A DNA stretch of 64,000 bases. It comes from an uncultured beta proteobacterium. GTDB taxonomy: Bacteria > Pseudomonadota > Gammaproteobacteria > Burkholderiales > SG8-41. Position numbers and translations under genes: made by a program. Location of the stretch: NCBI GenBank assembly GCA_903889565.1, contig CAISYC010000060.1, positions 1 through 64,000 of the forward strand. Reading direction: 5' to 3'. The notes below the pieces were generated by a model. It did not search any database, had not been told where the DNA came from, and saw only the letters and a list, made by a program, of their open reading frames with translations. Shown piece after piece: positions 52,149 to 63,671 of this stretch (position 1 is its first letter; every line of letters starts with the position of its first letter).

Positions 52149-52796
52149 TTATTCGTTGATCAACGCTTCGAACCGCGGCAGGCTGTCCGGAAACTGTTCG
52201 GCCAGCAGGCGAAACCACTGCTCGGATTGCGCCGGTGCTGGAACACGGCCTTCGCGCGGCCGGTTACAGGTAAAAAACAGGCAGTCGACCGGTTTGGCGC
52301 TCACCATGGCCTTGCTTTCCGGCGCATGCAGTATGCAATGCCGGCTGCTGTCGCCGTCGTCCGACGGCCAGTTGCCGACACGCTTGCTTAGAAAGACGCA
52401 ACCGCGATTGAGCCAGGGATTGCGCTCGAACAATTCCTTGCGGATGTCCCAGTAATCGTCGCCGCCGGGAATGCTGATCAGGTGGCCGTCGGCCGACAGC
52501 GATTTCATGTGAAACAACATGAGCGTGGCCTCACCGCCGCCCGCCCTCACCGTCTTGCGGTAGACATCGAAATATTGAAACACGAAATCGCCGAAACTCA
52601 ATCCTGGCGCGAATTCAAAATCCGTGCGTCGCAGGTTACCGCGGCCGTAACGCTCAAAAATGGCGACGACGTTTTCCAGTATCGCAAAGCCGCCCAGGCT
52701 GCAGCAGGGGGATGAACACGCGCGGCAGTCGCCTTCGGTGACGCCGCCACGGTGATATACATCCAGAAACCGGACGATGGCTTCCGGCAATCGCAC
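52149..52796 (-). CDS. Cys-cluster protein (YkgJ-like), GTG start coupled to LVIVD gene
   Basis: A 215-residue protein starting with GTG at 52796, whose first base is the last base of the upstream TAG (TAGTG overlap). Near the N-terminus is C-x2-C-x3-CC (GDCRACSSPCCSLGG), as in the YkgJ-like zinc/iron-chelating family; more cysteines occur later (HCILHAPESK, DCLFFTCNRP). A longer frame runs upstream antisense-like through the LVIVD gene but is a shadow. It is likely made by termination-reinitiation with the LVIVD protein. The function is unknown; metal binding is inferred. Confidence 0.7.
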   Translation of the reverse strand: MRLPEAIVRFLDVYHRGGVTEGDCRACSSPCCSLGGFAILENVVAIFERYGRGNLRRTDFEFAPGLSFGDFVFQYFDVYRKTVRAGGGEATLMLFHMKSLSADGHLISIPGGDDYWDIRKELFERNPWLNRGCVFLSKRVGNWPSDDGDSSRHCILHAPESKAMVSAKPVDCLFFTCNRPREGRVPAPAQSEQWFRLLAEQFPDSLPRFEALINE

Positions 52797-54478
52797 TAGG
52801 CGGGCGCCCCTGCGTTGAGTTGCGGCAGCGACCATTCGCTCACCGGCATTGCGCCGAGTACGGGCTTGCCGAGTGCCGGCGTCGACAGGATATAAATGCC
52901 GGTGGTGGTCCCCGCATAAATCAGATTGCGATCCCACTCGATAAAGATCTGGTCGGTCGGCCGGCTGTAGGCAAGCCCTTCCTTGTCGCAGGCGCGCGCG
53001 GACGCGCTGGTGTAATCGACGGGATCGACGCAATCCGGTCCGAGCGTGCCGCCATGCGGTGCGACAAACCACGCGACCTCTTTCGGACGACTCGGCTCCG
53101 ACAGGTCGTAACAACGGATCCCCGCATTGAAGAACGACAGCGCCATAAAGGTGGGAGACATGCGACCGGGTGCATTGTGCGAAGGCGAGATATGCGAGCC
53201 GAAGCGTCCGCGCGCGAAGCAAAAGTCGGTGTAGGGCGCATCGGCCGGCGGTTTCGGCCGCGGCAGCTGCGCGATCGGCACCGGATTGCGCGGATCGCGC
53301 ACATCGAGCACCCAGTTGGGCAGCCATGATTCGTTGCAGTCGGGGTTCAGCGGTTCCGCATTGGTGACGACAATGCCGCGGTCGAGCATGCCGAGGTACA
53401 TCGAATGAAACGGTATGCCGTCGAGACCATACGCCGGGGTCGGATCGAAGCGACCGATCACGCGCGGATTCCTGATGTCCGACAGATCGTGCGTCATGAA
53501 GCCGAACGCCGACCACGTGGCATAGCCGATCCTGCCGCCGTCTTCGATCCGTTTCGGCACGCACATCGGCAGGTGCGACATGGTGTAGGGCATGCGGTCA
53601 AGCGGAAAGCGCAGCTTCTGGAACACCGCGGTCGCCTCGTCGATCGAGAGCGGATGATCCGGAATGTTTTCAACACCGCGCCCCTGCAGGAATTTCCATT
53701 TCTTCAAATGCTCGACTTCGCCGGCCACACCGGCGCGCTGCCCCGGCACCCAGTAGCGCGAGACCTCCTTGATCTTCGACGGATCCGAAACGTCAACGAT
53801 CATCAGGCAGTTCGAATACGGCGTCAGGTTGGCGAGGATGCCGGTGTAAGTCTCATCGGGCGCGCAATCGATGTAGGCGTATTTTCCGCCGTCGTAGAAC
53901 ATCGAGTCGCCATGCGAACCGGAGCCGGTCTGGCCGGTGCTGAACTCGGAAATGCGCACCAGCCTGGTCGGGTCGGTGGCATCCCACGCGCGTATGCCGC
54001 GCAGCCCTTTCCAGTTCTTGTATTCCTCGTTGACCGATGGATCGAGAAAACGTCCGCCCGGCATGTGCAGAATCGAAACATAGGGCACCGCCGACGATTG
54101 CAACAGGATCCATTTGCGCAATTGCGCGTTGTAGGCGAGCTGACCGCCCGCCGCGCCGCCCTTGTTGATGAATCGCGGGTTGCGCGGATCGGTGACGTCG
54201 ATTACATCGCCGCCCTGGAAAATCAACCGCTGTCCGCCGGGCGCGCTCATCATCTGCATGCCGCCGCTGCGTCCGGCCCCAGGCAGATGCCCGATCAGTT
54301 CCATGTTGTTGAAATACATGCGCTGATCGAGGTAGGGCACGCTTTGCGGCGATGGCCGCGGATGGTGGTGCGCCAATCCGTTGGTGGCGGCCACCGCAGC
54401 ACCCGCCGCGACGGTACGGCCGGCCAGCTTCAGAAAATCCCGGCGCGCCGGTTCGTAACGCTCATGTTGCGAAGACAT
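52796..54478 (-). CDS. Tat-exported LVIVD-repeat beta-propeller protein
   Basis: A 560-residue exported propeller protein. The N-terminus has a classical twin-arginine motif (ARRDFLKLAG, residues 11-20) and a His-rich stretch (AHHHPRPSP). LVIVD-type blades are clear: GGDVIDVTDPRNPRFI, IRAWDATDPTRLVRI, CLMIVDVSDPSKIKEV, IVTNAEPLNPDCN-type segments and IRCYDLSEPSRPKEV. It belongs to the same broad family as the gene at 13867 but lacks that protein's helical insertion. It may bind a folded cofactor, given Tat export. It is the first gene of a coupled unit. Confidence 0.87.
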   Translation of the reverse strand: MSSQHERYEPARRDFLKLAGRTVAAGAAVAATNGLAHHHPRPSPQSVPYLDQRMYFNNMELIGHLPGAGRSGGMQMMSAPGGQRLIFQGGDVIDVTDPRNPRFINKGGAAGGQLAYNAQLRKWILLQSSAVPYVSILHMPGGRFLDPSVNEEYKNWKGLRGIRAWDATDPTRLVRISEFSTGQTGSGSHGDSMFYDGGKYAYIDCAPDETYTGILANLTPYSNCLMIVDVSDPSKIKEVSRYWVPGQRAGVAGEVEHLKKWKFLQGRGVENIPDHPLSIDEATAVFQKLRFPLDRMPYTMSHLPMCVPKRIEDGGRIGYATWSAFGFMTHDLSDIRNPRVIGRFDPTPAYGLDGIPFHSMYLGMLDRGIVVTNAEPLNPDCNESWLPNWVLDVRDPRNPVPIAQLPRPKPPADAPYTDFCFARGRFGSHISPSHNAPGRMSPTFMALSFFNAGIRCYDLSEPSRPKEVAWFVAPHGGTLGPDCVDPVDYTSASARACDKEGLAYSRPTDQIFIEWDRNLIYAGTTTGIYILSTPALGKPVLGAMPVSEWSLPQLNAGAPA

Positions 54479-54889
54479 CGGTTACCCCTCCCTCAAAATG
54501 ATTTGCCGCAGGTTTTTGTTGTTTGAACGGGCATTCACTGCAAAGGCCGGATGAAGTTCTGAACGCGACCACGATCGAGCCTTCTGATCGGATGCTACCC
54601 GACGCCTACCGGCCACGCAAACGGGATGACCATGACTATGGAGCAAGTTGAATTTCCAGATTGCCGGCGGCAATTGACAGCGAAGCCGCTCATGCCGGCG
54701 CGCGGATCACTCGCTTTACTGACCCCCGGGGTTGAAGGTCTTTTCTTCCCACTCCCCCGGGGAGAGGGATTAAGGGTGAGTGCGCAATATCATGAATTAC
54801 CTAATGCTCAATAATCCGCTCCAACGACATGATTGTTGTCCAAGTCGCAGCCCCGGCACCTTACCCAAGAAAGATGGCCGAAAATCGTA
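54479..54889. other. intergenic stretch without a recognised gene
   Basis: A 411-bp gap between the selenoprotein gene and the LVIVD gene, both minus strand. It contains a GC-rich inverted patch with CCCCCGGGG motifs near 54721-54770. No open frame with a ribosome site was seen. Confidence 0.5.
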
Positions 54890-56614
54890 TCACCCGCGTT
54901 TGCGCAGCTTGATTTCCTTGCCGACCGGATAGCCCAGCACGCCGTTGTGCGTGAACACAAAGCAACTGTTCCTGCCCAGATCGCCGGTGACGACGATCAT
55001 GTAATCATCGGGCTTCCAGACCAGCGGCACCATGCGCTCCGGATTGTCGGATTCATGAAACGCCTTCGGGATGCGGCCGGCATTGAATTCCTCGGTCAGA
55101 TTCCAGATCGGCTTCTGCGTCCAGTCGCGCAGGATGCTTTCGAACAGTTTTGCCGGAATGCGCGCGCGCTCGAACAGTTGCTCCTTGAATTTCTGTTTGG
55201 ACCAGCCGCCGGCGGCGATGGTCTCGGCCATGATCGGCGACAACAGAATCAGCGGCCGCAAGGTACCCATGCCCTGCCCCACGGTGAACATGAGTTGCCA
55301 GGTGTATTGGCGGACCACCGCATCGGCCATATATGGCATCATCGCTTCGGGCGTCGAGCCGGAGATCGACGAGATGTGATTGCCACCGGTGTAGCGCCCG
55401 ACCGACAACGCGTTGGTGCCCGCAGCAAAGCCGAACTCCGCGCAATTGGGCGGCCAGCCGATCTTCGCCAGCACATCCTCGTTTTCGGCCACCACCACAC
55501 GCCAGGTGTTGCCGAAGGTGGCCTTGTCGTTTTTGTGCGGCAGAAAGCCGGCGACGTTGCGCAGATACATCCGCCAGAAACGGCCGATCGAGGTGTTGGC
55601 CTGAAAGCCGTCGCGCATCACGCCCTGCGTATAGTTGAAGCCGAGTTCCTTGATGATGGGGCCGTTCAGCACGATCAGATTGTCGCCGCCCGGCGTGTTG
55701 CCGCTGTGCTCGACGCCGTAGTCGTGATCGGCCATCGCTTCGACCGCCGCAATCAGCACCGGCATGTATTCGGGCCGGCAGCCCGCCATCACGCCATTCA
55801 CCGCCACGCTCCACACCGTGGCCGCGCGATTGTCGGGCAGCATCACGCCAAGCACTTCGTCCGCATCGCGATCGGTGTGCTGCAAAAACCCTTCGACCTT
55901 GTCGACCGTCGGCGGCACGATCGGCAGGCCGTCCGACAACTCATGCGCGAGAAAATATTCGTTGACCTCCTCGAAGCTGCCGCGGCACACGATGTCGCGC
56001 GCGCCGGGTTCGCCGCCGACCACCGCTTTCGCCGGCAGCGTGCGCAGGTTCTCAATCACCTGCGCCAGCGTCACCTCGCGAATGTTCTTCTGCAGCACAT
56101 CCTTGGTTTGCACCCCCGGATGCCCCGGCACGCCCGCCATCTGGATATTCGGATAACCAAGGCCGATCGACGTCGCCTTGGCCAGCGTCATGAAACTCTC
56201 GCAGATCAGCGTCGACGACGGAATGCCTGCGGCTTCGGCTGCTGCACTGGCCCGCAACACGGCGGGCGCACAGCTCCCTCAACACCCCATGCCGGAGATG
56301 ACGGCGTCGACCCCCAGCGCTTTGAGTTTTTCCGGCAGTGCGGCGACGACTTTGCGTTCGTCGCTGCCATGCGTGTTGCCGAACTCGCTCCAGTTGATAA
56401 ATTTCATGCCGGGATACAGCGCGGAGAGGCTGCCCTCGAGCTGCTCGAAGACTTCATTGCCGCGGAACACATAGTCCCAGATCCAGCCGATGGTTTTGCC
56501 TTCGAGTGTATCGAGCCGCTTCGCCAGCGGCTTGACCCTGGTCTGGCGCGGGCTGCGCGGCCACAAGGCTTCGTACTGCGCGCGCGCGTATGAATTGGTG
56601 TTGGTCGTGTTCAT
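54890..56614 (-). CDS. UGSC-family selenoprotein (in-frame TGA = selenocysteine)
   Basis: A 574-residue protein read through TGA at 56281-56279. Without decoding it would appear as two genes: 56614..56279 ending GMGC, and an unstarted frame to 54890. The TGA falls in the context G-M-G-C-U112-G-S-C115, the UGSC motif that names a selenoprotein family; U-x-x-C is a redox-type pair. Residues 1-190 are the UGSC domain (LEGKTIGWIWDYVFRGNEV before it; SFMTLAKATSIGLGYPN after). A C-terminal domain of about 380 residues starts near a SDGLPIVPPTVDKVEGFL segment and ends KEIKLRKRG. A SECIS-like hairpin follows the TGA. The ATG at 56614 is preferred; TTG 56680 is possible. The reaction is unknown. Confidence 0.85.
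56241..56281 (-). promoter_or_regulatory. UGA codon and bacterial SECIS-like stem-loop
   Basis: UGA at 56281-56279 is followed after GGGA by a stem: GCUGUGC (56274-56268) pairs with GUGCAGC (56247-56241), and GCCCGC (56267-56262) with GCGGGC (56255-56250). A CA bulge sits on the 3' side and the apical loop is CGUGUU. The loop begins 18 bases after UGA and has G as its second base. This fits the known bacterial SECIS rule (G in the first two loop bases, 16-37 bases from UGA). Confidence 0.8.
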
Positions 56615-56801
56615 GAGAACTTTCGAATCTTTGGTTGCTCTGTAAATGCGGTGTTGCGGATTAATCGCGGTTTGCGACAACGCAATTATTTTACGCGCTT
56701 TGCTCCCCCGTTCCCGACGACTGCTTTATCGCAACCCGCCTCAATTTGACCGCCACTCGACCATACGCTTAAGCTTTCCCGCATTTCCCGGAGAAGTCCT
56801 C

Positions 56802-57764
56802 ATGGCGCAAGCAACAATCCTGTTCGCGGCCGTCGCCTCGCTGTGCGCGCTGTCCGCTTCCGCGCAAAGCTATCCCGCCAGGCCGATTCGCATCATCGTC
56901 GGCTTTGCACCGGGCGGCGCCGTTGACATCATCGCGCGCATCTCGGCGCAGCGGCTCTCGGAAGCCTTCGGCCGCACCGCCGTGGTCGAGAACCGCCCGG
57001 GCGCCAGCACCAACATCGCCGCCGACCTCGTCGCCAAGGCCGCACCCGATGGCTACACGCTGCTGATGGGGTCGTCGTCAAACGCTACCAACATGACGCT
57101 CTTCCGCAATCTGCCCTACGAAACGCTGCGCGACTTTGCCCCCGTCACGCAGGTCGGCTACGGACCGCAGGTACTCGCCATGCATCCATCGCTGCCGGCG
57201 AAATCCGTGAAGGAGCTGGTCGCGCTGTCAAGAAAGATACCCGGCCAGTTGAGTTACGCCTCGGCCGGCAACGGCAGCTCGCAACATCTGGCCGGCGAAC
57301 TCTTCAAGATGATGAACAAGGTGGACATCGTGCACGTGCCGTACAAGGGCGGCCAGCCGGCGCTGGTCGATGTCATCGGCGGTCAGGTCGCTTATCTGTT
57401 CATCAATACGCTCGAAGCGCTGCCGCACGCAAAATCAGGCCGCCTGAAAGTGCTCGCCGTGGCGAGCGCCAGGCGATCGAGCGTGCTGCCGGAGGTGCCC
57501 ACCTTCGCCGAATCGGGCGTGCCGCCCCTCGTGTCGGAAACGTGGTGGGGCCTGCTCGCCCCCGCCGGCACACCGAAAGAGATCATTGCGCGGCTGCACG
57601 GTGAAATCGCCAGGGGCCTCGCCACCGCTGAATTGAAAGAGCGATTCACCACGCTCGGCGCCGAACCGGTCGGCAGCTCACCCGAGCAGTTCAGCGCGTT
57701 TATTCGCGAGGAAGTGCAGAAATGGGGGGATGTCGTGAGGAAGCTGGGGATCAAGGCGGATTGA
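56802..57764 (+). CDS. Bug/TctC-family tripartite tricarboxylate receptor
   Basis: A 320-residue receptor divergent from the selenoprotein gene (187 bp between starts). The ATG at 56802 follows GGAGAAGTCCTC, and the signal peptide ends LSASAQ. It continues SYPARPIRIIVGFAPGGAVD, ENRPGASTNIAADLVA, DGYTLLMGSSSN, YASAGNGSSQHLAGELF and HVPYKGGQPAL. The intergenic region may control both genes, which would tie uptake of an unknown acid to the selenoprotein. Confidence 0.93.
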   Translation: MAQATILFAAVASLCALSASAQSYPARPIRIIVGFAPGGAVDIIARISAQRLSEAFGRTAVVENRPGASTNIAADLVAKAAPDGYTLLMGSSSNATNMTLFRNLPYETLRDFAPVTQVGYGPQVLAMHPSLPAKSVKELVALSRKIPGQLSYASAGNGSSQHLAGELFKMMNKVDIVHVPYKGGQPALVDVIGGQVAYLFINTLEALPHAKSGRLKVLAVASARRSSVLPEVPTFAESGVPPLVSETWWGLLAPAGTPKEIIARLHGEIARGLATAELKERFTTLGAEPVGSSPEQFSAFIREEVQKWGDVVRKLGIKAD

Positions 57765-61945: not shown

Positions 61946-63454
61946 TCACACCCGCGTCATTTCAACCAGCGCCCCGGCCTGCGGCAAGTCTTCGAGCGCC
62001 CACAGTTGGCGCAGCAGTGCATCGGTCTTCTGCGCCGCCAGTTGGCCGCGCGCGAGCAGGCGGAGTTTCTCTTCCATCTCGGCGTCGGTCATCGGGTTTT
62101 TCCAGTGGCCGCGGTGGTAATCCACGCGCACGGTCTTGCGCTGGTCGGATTTGAATACGAGTTCGAGATCGCACAGGTTGTATTCCTGCTCCACCCGGTC
62201 GGCTTCTGCCGACGGAATGCATTTCACGCGGCTGACGAGATCGAGCAGACGCGCATCGTGCAGATAGGGGTCTTCGTAGTAAACGGGGTCGATCCTGCCA
62301 TAGATCATCGCCACGCCGGCCGAATACGGCATGCTGTGGTCTGCGGTTTCGTGGGTTTGCGGACGCCACTTGTCCGGGCTGTCGGCCATGACCTTGATTG
62401 CGCTGCGCGAAACGCGGATGTTGATGGCCTCGATCTCGCTCACATCCTTGAAGTACTGGCGTGACTCCAGCGCGGCCTGGGCAACAGTCTGTGCGTACTG
62501 GCCAAGCGCGAAACGCTTGAGGAATGCGTGCATGATGCCGTACGGCGCACCCAGCGGCGGCAGCGTAAACGGCTTGTGGCTGATCACGTTGAAGAAGCCA
62601 TCGCGGCCCTCGAACACCTGCGCCGGCCCCGTCATCCCGGATTGCGCGAGGCGGACGGCGAACATCGCCTTGCGGCAGGATTCGGCCGAACCGTACGATT
62701 TCCAGTTCGACAAGGTGCCGACCCGGCCCTGGTTGATGGCGATATTGCCGCCGACAAAAATGCCGATCGCCGTCACCATTTGCTGCTCCGTCAACCCGCT
62801 CAAGCGGCCGGCGCCGACACAGGCGGCGAGACCGGCAATGGTTGACGAGTCGAGGCCGATGCCGCGGATATCCAGCACATCGTTGACTTTGCAGAACACC
62901 TCATAGGCAAGCACGGTGGCCATAATCAGATCGCGCCCGCTGCGCCCGCCCAGTTCGGCCGCCGGCAACAGCGCCGCGATGCTGTCGCTCGGGTGACCAT
63001 TGCCGACGCTGATAAAGCCGTCGTTGAAATCCAGATAGCGGATGGCCACGCCGTTGGCGAACGTTGCCAGATCGGCACTCGTTTTGATGCCGCTGCACAG
63101 TACGGTCGCCGGCTTCCTAGTGGTGATCTCGCCGGCGAGTTCGACGGCAATCTGTGCCGGGCCGGAGCTGTAACCGCCCAAGGCGCAACCGAACGTGTCG
63201 AGAACGATACGCTTGGCCGTGTGCACCACTTCCGGCGGCAGCTCTTCGTACTTTAAATTGACGGCGTAACGGGCCAGCGTTTCCGCCACACCAAGCTGGC
63301 CCCTCGCCAGCGTGGACCACGAACGTTCGCTATCGGGGCTCTGCGCCTGCACCGGCGCGGCTGCTGCGGCGCCAGTTGCCGCCACCTGCGCCAGAAAAAT
63401 ACGGCGCCCCGCGCCGCGTACGTCGAGCGTTTCATCCAGCGCAACAGGTTCCAT
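61946..63454 (-). CDS. MmgE/PrpD family protein with Tat-like signal (third copy)
   Basis: A 502-residue family member. The start at 63454 follows GGAGGAGACC. The N-terminus GAGRRIFLAQVAATGAAAAA ending PVQAQ is a Tat-like signal. Family blocks are more divergent: KRIVLDTFGCALGGYSSG, RYLDFNDGFISVGNGHPSD, TVLAYEVFCKVND and ESCRKAMFAVRLAQSGMTGP. It belongs to a different branch from the genes at 7950 and 26992. Export of this enzyme type is unusual. Confidence 0.86.
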   Translation of the reverse strand: MEPVALDETLDVRGAGRRIFLAQVAATGAAAAAPVQAQSPDSERSWSTLARGQLGVAETLARYAVNLKYEELPPEVVHTAKRIVLDTFGCALGGYSSGPAQIAVELAGEITTRKPATVLCSGIKTSADLATFANGVAIRYLDFNDGFISVGNGHPSDSIAALLPAAELGGRSGRDLIMATVLAYEVFCKVNDVLDIRGIGLDSSTIAGLAACVGAGRLSGLTEQQMVTAIGIFVGGNIAINQGRVGTLSNWKSYGSAESCRKAMFAVRLAQSGMTGPAQVFEGRDGFFNVISHKPFTLPPLGAPYGIMHAFLKRFALGQYAQTVAQAALESRQYFKDVSEIEAINIRVSRSAIKVMADSPDKWRPQTHETADHSMPYSAGVAMIYGRIDPVYYEDPYLHDARLLDLVSRVKCIPSAEADRVEQEYNLCDLELVFKSDQRKTVRVDYHRGHWKNPMTDAEMEEKLRLLARGQLAAQKTDALLRQLWALEDLPQAGALVEMTRV

Positions 63455-63671
63455 GGTCTCCTCCTCCAAGGATTGACGATGAAGCGTGATTTTGCGCCAG
63501 TTCCGCAATGACCGGTTGGCGGGTTCGTTTGCCCAAAGTTAAAGGAGTCAAAGGGTTCAAGCGGCAATTCATGCGCGGGTGACCCGTTGCCCGCCGCGCC
63601 GCTTCCCTGACAATATGCGCAATGCATTGCAGCAGGCTATGATGGCGGCAACAACGAAGGAGGAGAACAAC

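Follow-up and report, generated by a model that had tools for sequence, protein, structure and literature searches.

Sequence evidence indicates that a gene which standard annotation divides in two is one intact gene encoding one selenoprotein of the UGSC family. The gene comes from an uncultured beta proteobacterium and lies in a stretch of 64,000 nucleotides (assembly GCA_903889565.1, contig CAISYC010000060.1, positions 1 to 64,000), which was analysed as a whole and is here called the window. An earlier reading of the letters without database searches (the sequence-only reading) had proposed that the split gene is really one UGSC-motif selenoprotein, and that proposal is supported by the codon pattern, the hairpins and the selenocysteine (Sec) machinery described below. 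Three observations go beyond it: the gene is one of 22 UGSC loci in its genome, its second half also occurs as a stand-alone gene, and its Sec domain is a distant relative of GrdB/PrdB.

Read directly, the minus-strand frame runs from ATG 56614, a conventional choice of start, to TGA 56281-56279 and then stays open in the same frame until the stop TGA 54892-54890, so that the two same-frame open reading frames of the sequence-only reading are indeed parted only by that codon. With TGA translated as Sec, the joined product has 574 amino acids with Sec as residue 112, and its context, GMGC-U-GSC, bears out the join G-M-G-C-U-G-S-C given earlier. Under translation table 11 the gene is split, as had been foreseen, into a truncated 111-residue protein and a headless one: the first open reading frame has 133 amino acids from TTG 56680 (111 if counted from ATG 56614), and the second has 456 from GTG 56260, without the first 118 residues and without the Sec motif. 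In the accompanying claim that the second frame has no good start or ribosome site of its own, 'no ribosome site' was slightly too strong, since GAGGGAG (56280-56274, within the TGA-GGN codons) ends 13 nt ahead of GTG 56260. The window protein belongs to the Pfam UGSC family PF24696, with 89.3 bits against a gathering cut-off of 25. It is filed there and not under the NCBIfam equivalog NF041046 because its score against the latter, 44.6 bits, is below the cut-off of 125. Coordinates are collected in Table 1. Two further reading frames adjoin or overlap the gene: a 560-residue protein at 52796-54478 (minus strand), whose start looks Tat-like by eye and which matches no Pfam family at E 1e-5, and a 586-residue antisense open reading frame at 54833-56593 (plus strand), which is most likely the mechanical shadow of a GC-rich gene.

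Table 1. Positions of the UGSC selenoprotein gene, its parts and its neighbours in the window
Feature	Positions	Strand	Basis or remark
UGSC selenoprotein gene	54890..56614	-	574 codons (Sec at 112) plus stop; sequence read; PF24696 match
In-frame TGA, Sec residue 112	56279..56281	-	Codon counts in 103 homologous segments
U-G-S-C motif, residues 112-115	56270..56281	-	Sec follows strand 104-110 and precedes helix 115-128 in the AlphaFold2 (AF2) model
N-terminal UGSC domain, residues about 16-195	56030..56569	-	Pfam match; distant GrdB/PrdB relative
C-terminal domain (C-domain), residues about 206-574	54893..55999	-	Matched by no Pfam or NCBIfam model; elsewhere a separate gene next to short UGSC genes
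Candidate SECIS hairpin after the Sec codon, apical loop CGUGUU	56241..56274	-	Folding; family hairpin scores; covariation in relatives
TctC/Bug solute-receptor gene	56646..57764	+	Divergent neighbour; HMM match 56808-57761, 194 nt from UGSC start
MmgE/PrpD-family gene	61946..63508	-	5.3 kb away, not counted as close

Is the TGA read as selenocysteine? Bacterial genomes were scanned with an alignment of the 13 fused proteins of the host genome, which gave at least 580 confirmed stretches; the 80 best loci were retained. A tblastn search of these 80 loci with the window protein yielded 129 segments; 26 that did not reach residue 112 were dropped, leaving 103 that cover it. The codon there is TGA in 89 segments, TGC in 9, TGT in 4 and GGC in 1, with TAA and TAG in none, and Sec or Cys therefore occupies the motif position in 102 of the 103. 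Because TGA appears 89 times, Cys codons 13 times, Gly once and the other two stop codons never, the TGA is not a matter of chance. With the hairpins and the Sec machinery taken into account, decoding of TGA 56281-56279 as Sec can be called nearly certain. The 13 Cys segments are the uninterrupted homologues that the sequence-only reading had named as its test. They come from Novosphingobium flavum (L101), Nocardioides sediminis (L127), two Bacillota metagenome-assembled genomes (MAGs; L141 and L142), a Lachnospiraceae MAG (L106, in one of its three copies), and eight records of Bacteroidia, Prevotellaceae, Muribaculaceae or Verrucomicrobia (L144-L151). The segment with Gly at the Sec site is L106:5196-6890. 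A codon preference is also seen at the Arg position of the motif, where the codon closes the stem of the hairpin: 73 of the 77 TGA genes with Arg use CGG, whereas the four non-TGA segments with Arg at the stem-closing place have CGC, CGC, AGA and AGG, the Cys homologues L101 and L127 both using CGC.

The family carries the hairpin of bacterial selenoprotein genes, just 3' of the Sec codon and with G in its loop, although the hairpin of the window gene is weak when taken alone (z -1.55; 18 of 200 shuffles fold as well). By a home-made score, a GC-weighted helix sum compared with single-base shuffles, the mean best hairpin reaches 19.3 in the 21 TGA genes of the host genome against 10.2 when shuffled, and 17.8 against 11.2 in the 89 other TGA segments. 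The corresponding values are 8.9 and 9.4 in the 14 non-TGA segments, an imperfect control drawn mostly from distant Bacteroidia and Bacillota. The 95% point of the pooled shuffles is exceeded by 18 of the 21 host TGA genes, 27 of the 89 other TGA segments (30%) and none of the 14 non-TGA segments. Within one register class, 23 of the 110 TGA sequences, 92.9% of cells pair, compared with 18.5-46.7% for slid controls, and two-sided changes are seen in 6 of the 8 stem pairs; this subset comprises 22 sequences picked for having their best hairpin in that register, together with the window gene (one register off), and the choice favours pairing. Counted from the list of loops, GUG lies within the loop in 75 of the 110 TGA sequences.

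The genes for Sec insertion are present as well. The host genome has tRNA-Sec at C59:35128 (75.5 bits against a cut-off of 47), SelB at C59:36321, SelA at C59:38959 and SelD at C64:1542, each above its curated cut-off, so that all four of the genes selA, selB, selC and selD, for which the sequence-only reading had proposed to check the genome, were found. Neither of the two results which that reading had named as counting against it, a genome missing selB or selC and halves that are separate genes with their own starts, appeared. The host SelD gene (G000:C64:1542-2465, L161) itself has an in-frame TGA, and its product, selenophosphate synthase, is another selenoprotein candidate.

Considering these results, it is difficult to see how the locus could consist of two genes, or of one with a restart at GTG 56260, the TGA being a true stop. 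The GAGGGAG ahead of that GTG and the split in table-11 annotation would favour such an arrangement. However, there are uninterrupted Cys homologues, TGA is the sole stop type at residue 112, a hairpin follows the codon, the genome has the Sec machinery, and the restarted product would begin within helix 115-128 of a confident AF2 model; we regard this explanation as very improbable. A pseudogene, a nonsense mutation or an assembly error might be suspected in a draft genome of 74 contigs, yet the same TGA column is found in 21 of the 22 paralogues of the host and in 89 segments from other genomes, and an accident of this kind is hardly credible.

The host genome (G000; 5.04 Mb, 74 contigs, completeness 99.69%, contamination 3.9%) matches PF24696 at 22 places, 21 of them with exactly one TGA, which in each case is the U of the U-G motif. 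These paralogues are 16-63% identical to the window protein in the alignment, while named homologues with 74-82% identity come from records titled Burkholderiales, Betaproteobacteria or Bordetella parapertussis. The titles of the last group, MAG records CAMAYE01, CAMDLH01, CAMCYY01 and others (L072, L074, L075 and further loci) with close homologues, look misassigned. Two host paralogues depart from the motif. One, at C5:87234-87752 (L025:1586-3370), is the only one without TGA; it has Met for Sec (LADMGIC) and a fused C-domain, and is perhaps a non-redox descendant. The other, at C58:73465-73968 (L027:10880-12625), bears the TGA in a UGTS motif and is the one of the 21 host TGA copies with Ser for the resolving Cys.

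UGSC matches were found in 21 of 30 relatives searched, and the 14 of the same genus have 7 to 58 each. The highest count belongs to G003, with 58 matches, of which 54 have TGA (a second stop being present in three), 4 lack it and a few are fragments; this genome is a 5.7 Mb draft of 330 contigs (completeness 98, contamination 2), in which mixed strains could inflate the count. For comparison, a table in a survey that covered more than 5200 genomes gives 26 and 33 for UGSC (excerpts of PMC5029168), figures that we take to mean 26 organisms and 33 genes, and the largest whole bacterial selenoproteomes reported in passages of a 2026 review have 57 and 63 genes (PMC13188914). With 22 loci here and 7 to 58 matches in each relative of its genus, the host lineage makes unusually heavy use of Sec in a single family. 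UGSC proteins have been listed among the prominent selenoproteins of aquatic metagenomes (excerpts of PMC2398784 and PMC9402790), and our literature search found no paper that combines selenoprotein, selenocysteine, Burkholderiales and metagenome-assembled genomes.

The C-domain accompanies the UGSC domain throughout the host genome. Thirteen of the 22 loci encode fused proteins of 531-595 residues and nine have short UGSC genes (with starts chosen by us), and all nine short genes have an adjacent C-domain gene on the same strand, so that a fused or adjacent partner is present at 22 of 22 loci. Gaps range from -50 to 126 nt in eight of the short-gene pairs, and in the ninth (L025) the partner, found by HMM, is about 0.1 kb off. 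No family in Pfam or NCBIfam describes the C-domain: among 35 members scanned, no family was matched by more than one member, with best E values of 0.017 and 0.066. Residues that are invariant or nearly so are mostly located in it (D228, C279, R345, N353 and E377 in the numbering of the window protein), C279 being Gly in 2 of the 13 host fused proteins. A second domain fused to UGSC was named 'Unknown_1' in 2008 (an excerpt of PMC2398784), and the C-domain is probably the same. In nine loci (L085, L087, L089, L090, L092, L093, L094, L097 and L107), a fused UGSC gene is followed by a second, separate C-domain gene that has an additional N-terminal segment, and in five of the nine a gene resembling thioredoxin reductase (TrxR-like) comes next.

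The AF2 models are confident both for the full window protein (pLDDT 94.4, pTM 0.93) and for the C-domain (pLDDT 90.9, pTM 0.91). The UGSC domain is modelled as repeated strand-helix units, Sec lying between strand 104-110 and helix 115-128. Judged from the order of secondary-structure elements alone, its predicted layout would be Rossmann/flavodoxin-like, and this order is not that of a thioredoxin-like fold, the fold called likely for UGSC in text from the 2008 paper (PMC2398784). Searching the sequences of solved structures with the single protein gave nothing at E up to 1, and the best E with a 22-member profile was 0.25. Foldseek returned only generic, low-TM rows for the whole model (best E 7.8e-4; among the 50 matches listed, TM to query did not exceed 0.20), and for the C-domain no match at E <= 0.001 and no convincing solved relative. 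The top 17 C-domain rows are all class I fumarases, but their E (at least 6.5e-3) and TM to query (at most 0.26) make them a lead only.

A relationship to GrdB/PrdB emerged from profile comparison. Among the 22 host UGSC proteins, seven match the GrdB model (best E 1.3e-4), seven PrdB, five sarcosine GrdF, three betaine GrdH and three the mixed selenoprotein B model TIGR01918. None of the GRDB-type models was reached at its cut-off, the window protein giving E 0.003 and 17 of 300 bits against PrdB (TIGR04483), and PF07355 (GRDB) matched neither the window protein nor the host genome. A GRDB search of ten genomes behind the homologous loci found eight matches in two of them (Rokubacteriota and Chloroflexi), and all eight that were inspected have TGA at the corresponding Sec site. 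These GrdB/PrdB-like proteins (L152-L159) have the motifs UGTC, UPVC or UPLC; two are full-length GrdB, one of them beside a GrdE gene. When the host UGSC domains were aligned by hhalign with the six PrdB-like proteins, Sec fell on Sec with E 2.2e-6 and prob 89; with all eight proteins, Sec again fell on Sec, with E 6.3e-6 and prob 85. Six unrelated neighbour families used as controls gave prob 1.8 or less, and a reversed set 0.2. The UGSC domain is thus very probably homologous to GRDB (GrdB/PrdB), as a distant relative with Sec in the same place and not as a member of that family. PF09338 (Gly_reductase), the model for the pyruvoyl partner GrdE/PrdA, found nothing in the host genome, while the same search was positive in the Rokubacteriota genome. 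The C-domain was also considered as a GrdE/PrdA relative and rejected, with prob 0.4 against the one GrdE tested. The C-terminal part of that GrdE weakly resembles the UGSC domain, with prob 36 for a set of 89 proteins and 2 for the host set.

The neighbourhoods of UGSC genes were surveyed in 99 loci (18 stretches of the host genome, the window and the 80 named loci) with home-made gene calls that include antisense shadow frames, the key genes being rechecked by HMM. An initial tally found a Bug gene in all 19 of the host loci, which is uninformative because Bug genes are everywhere in this genome; adjacency was therefore counted instead. Measured between the edges of HMM matches, 18 of the 22 host units have a TctC/Bug gene no more than 350 nt away, on the same strand in 14. 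The chance level is rough, P being 1.4e-10 if 18% of genes have a Bug neighbour and 5e-5 if 39% do, both percentages being our own estimates. The genome has at least 150 TctC/Bug genes (445 candidates, 150 scored). It also has 58 MmgE/PrpD genes, which occur within 3.5 kb of 8 of the 22 units (P about 9e-4 by a crude density estimate; two pairs of units share a stretch and so are not independent). TrxR-like genes appear in 15 of the 99 loci, and in 10 the distance to a UGSC-family gene is no more than 350 nt; the Cys form of Novosphingobium flavum (L101) also has a TrxR-like neighbour. The best NCBIfam match of the five that were tested is thioredoxin reductase, below the equivalog cut-off; the TrxR-like gene of the host stands beside selB-selA, 3.1 kb from a UGSC gene, and not beside the UGSC gene of the window. 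Nine surveyed loci include selA and six selB, with one selA counted twice since the host stretches L038 and L040 overlap. Transporters named by Pfam beside homologues include the TRAP components DctM in L107 (Vineibacter terrae CC-CFT640) and DctP in L124 (Rhodospirillales URHD0017), two carriers of the Sec form, as well as citrate, dicarboxylate or sodium-sulfate types in L106. Taken together, the genes around UGSC units suggest the uptake and catabolism of organic acids.

What reaction might such a protein carry out? The sequence-only reading held that the UGSC family has no established function, which agrees with passages of the 2026 review (PMC13188914), and the UGSC selenoprotein literature, as represented by excerpts, yielded neither a function nor a relationship to GrdB/PrdB. 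In the mechanism held for glycine reductase and D-proline reductase, Sec attacks a carbon of the substrate, from which a leaving group is expelled. Parts of this mechanism are supported by excerpts of PMC13188914 and PMC10838667, and Sec-dependent C-F cleavage has been proposed for the GrdB/GrdE relatives encoded with a transporter by farACEB (excerpts of PMC10838667). By analogy, the UGSC and C-domain pair may act as a substrate-specific reductase. The neighbouring solute receptor would bring in a small carboxylate, and the C-domain would bind and polarise it. The Sec-112 selenolate would then attack the carbon that bears the leaving group (a C-N, C-O, C-S or C-halogen bond) and expel that group; Cys-115, in copies that have the Cys, would resolve the selenium intermediate as an Se-S bond, and the TrxR-like flavoprotein would serve as electron donor and reduce that bond. 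The roughly twenty divergent copies could each be an enzyme for one substrate. Substrate-specific, Se-dependent reductive C-X cleavage of imported carboxylates is the reading we favour, tentatively and at somewhat under an even chance; against it stand the search of the host genome that found no GrdE/PrdA partner, the GRDB-type models that stay short of their cut-offs, the Ser that replaces the resolving Cys in 1 of 21 TGA copies, the distance of the host TrxR-like gene from the UGSC gene of the window, the C-domain's want of a significant fold match, and the sheer abundance of Bug genes.

Might the UGSC protein instead be a thioredoxin-like redox enzyme that acts on disulfides or peroxides? 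U-x-x-C is a classical redox motif, TrxR-like genes are among the neighbours, and excerpts of PMC2398784 call a thioredoxin-like fold likely. However, in the AF2 model (pLDDT 94.4) strand-helix units recur in Rossmann/flavodoxin-like order and Sec follows a strand, the domain is related to GrdB/PrdB, and about 20 divergent copies with a C-domain, mostly with a receptor, would better fit substrate-specific enzymes; we consider a thioredoxin-like role unlikely. Alternatively, catalysis may lie chiefly with the C-domain, as a lyase, dehydratase or isomerase that acts on organic acids, the UGSC domain serving only to activate or reduce it. In favour of this are the concentration of invariant or nearly invariant residues in the C-domain, the extra stand-alone C-domain gene of some homologues, the class I fumarases in the top 17 PDB fold rows and the MmgE/PrpD genes within 3.5 kb of 8 of the 22 units. 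Yet the fumarase rows are not significant, given their E and TM values, and Gly takes the place of C279 in 2 of 13 host fused proteins, and this division of labour seems rather improbable, if worth keeping in mind.

A broader reading may also be entertained, which we put forward as speculative and quite possibly wrong: UGSC and C-domain pairs would form a large, unrecognised class of Se-dependent reductases that radiated in carboxylate-scavenging Betaproteobacteria, with dozens per genome, most with an adjoining receptor, acting on different C-X bonds by the selenolate mechanism of GrdB/PrdB, and with a new substrate-activating domain in place of the pyruvoyl subunit. Single genomes would then, by the UGSC family alone, rival the largest known bacterial selenoproteomes.

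Several known systems, all cited from excerpts, invite comparison. The UGSC selenoprotein of 2008 (PMC2398784; PF24696; NF041046) shares the UxxC motif, the Pfam match, the in-frame TGA with a hairpin and the fusion to a second conserved domain, but the window protein is below the NF041046 cut-off, its predicted layout is not thioredoxin-like, and its genome has 22 loci. With GrdB/PrdB it shares distant profile homology, Sec aligned on Sec and a two-component arrangement, and some bacteria have several substrate-specific versions of GrdB/PrdB per genome (PMC10838667); it differs in falling below PF07355, in a host where no GrdE/PrdA partner was found, and in having a C-domain unlike the one GrdE tested. 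The fluoroacetate reductase operon farACEB, which also has a radical-SAM component, similarly combines a GRDB-type selenoprotein, a partner subunit and an organic-acid transporter, but its proteins are true GrdB/GrdE relatives, in Synergistota (PMC10838667). The UGSC selenoproteins of Geodermatophilaceae belong to the same motif family and also rely on a recoded stop, although there Sec is inserted at TAG by a tRNA with anticodon CUA, whereas the window gene uses TGA (PMC5330540).

Taken together, the relationship with GrdB/PrdB, the C-domain as a constant partner throughout the host genome and the receptor and TrxR-like neighbours provide a testable enzyme hypothesis. The difficulty of making Sec proteins can be sidestepped with the Cys versions from Novosphingobium flavum and Nocardioides sediminis.
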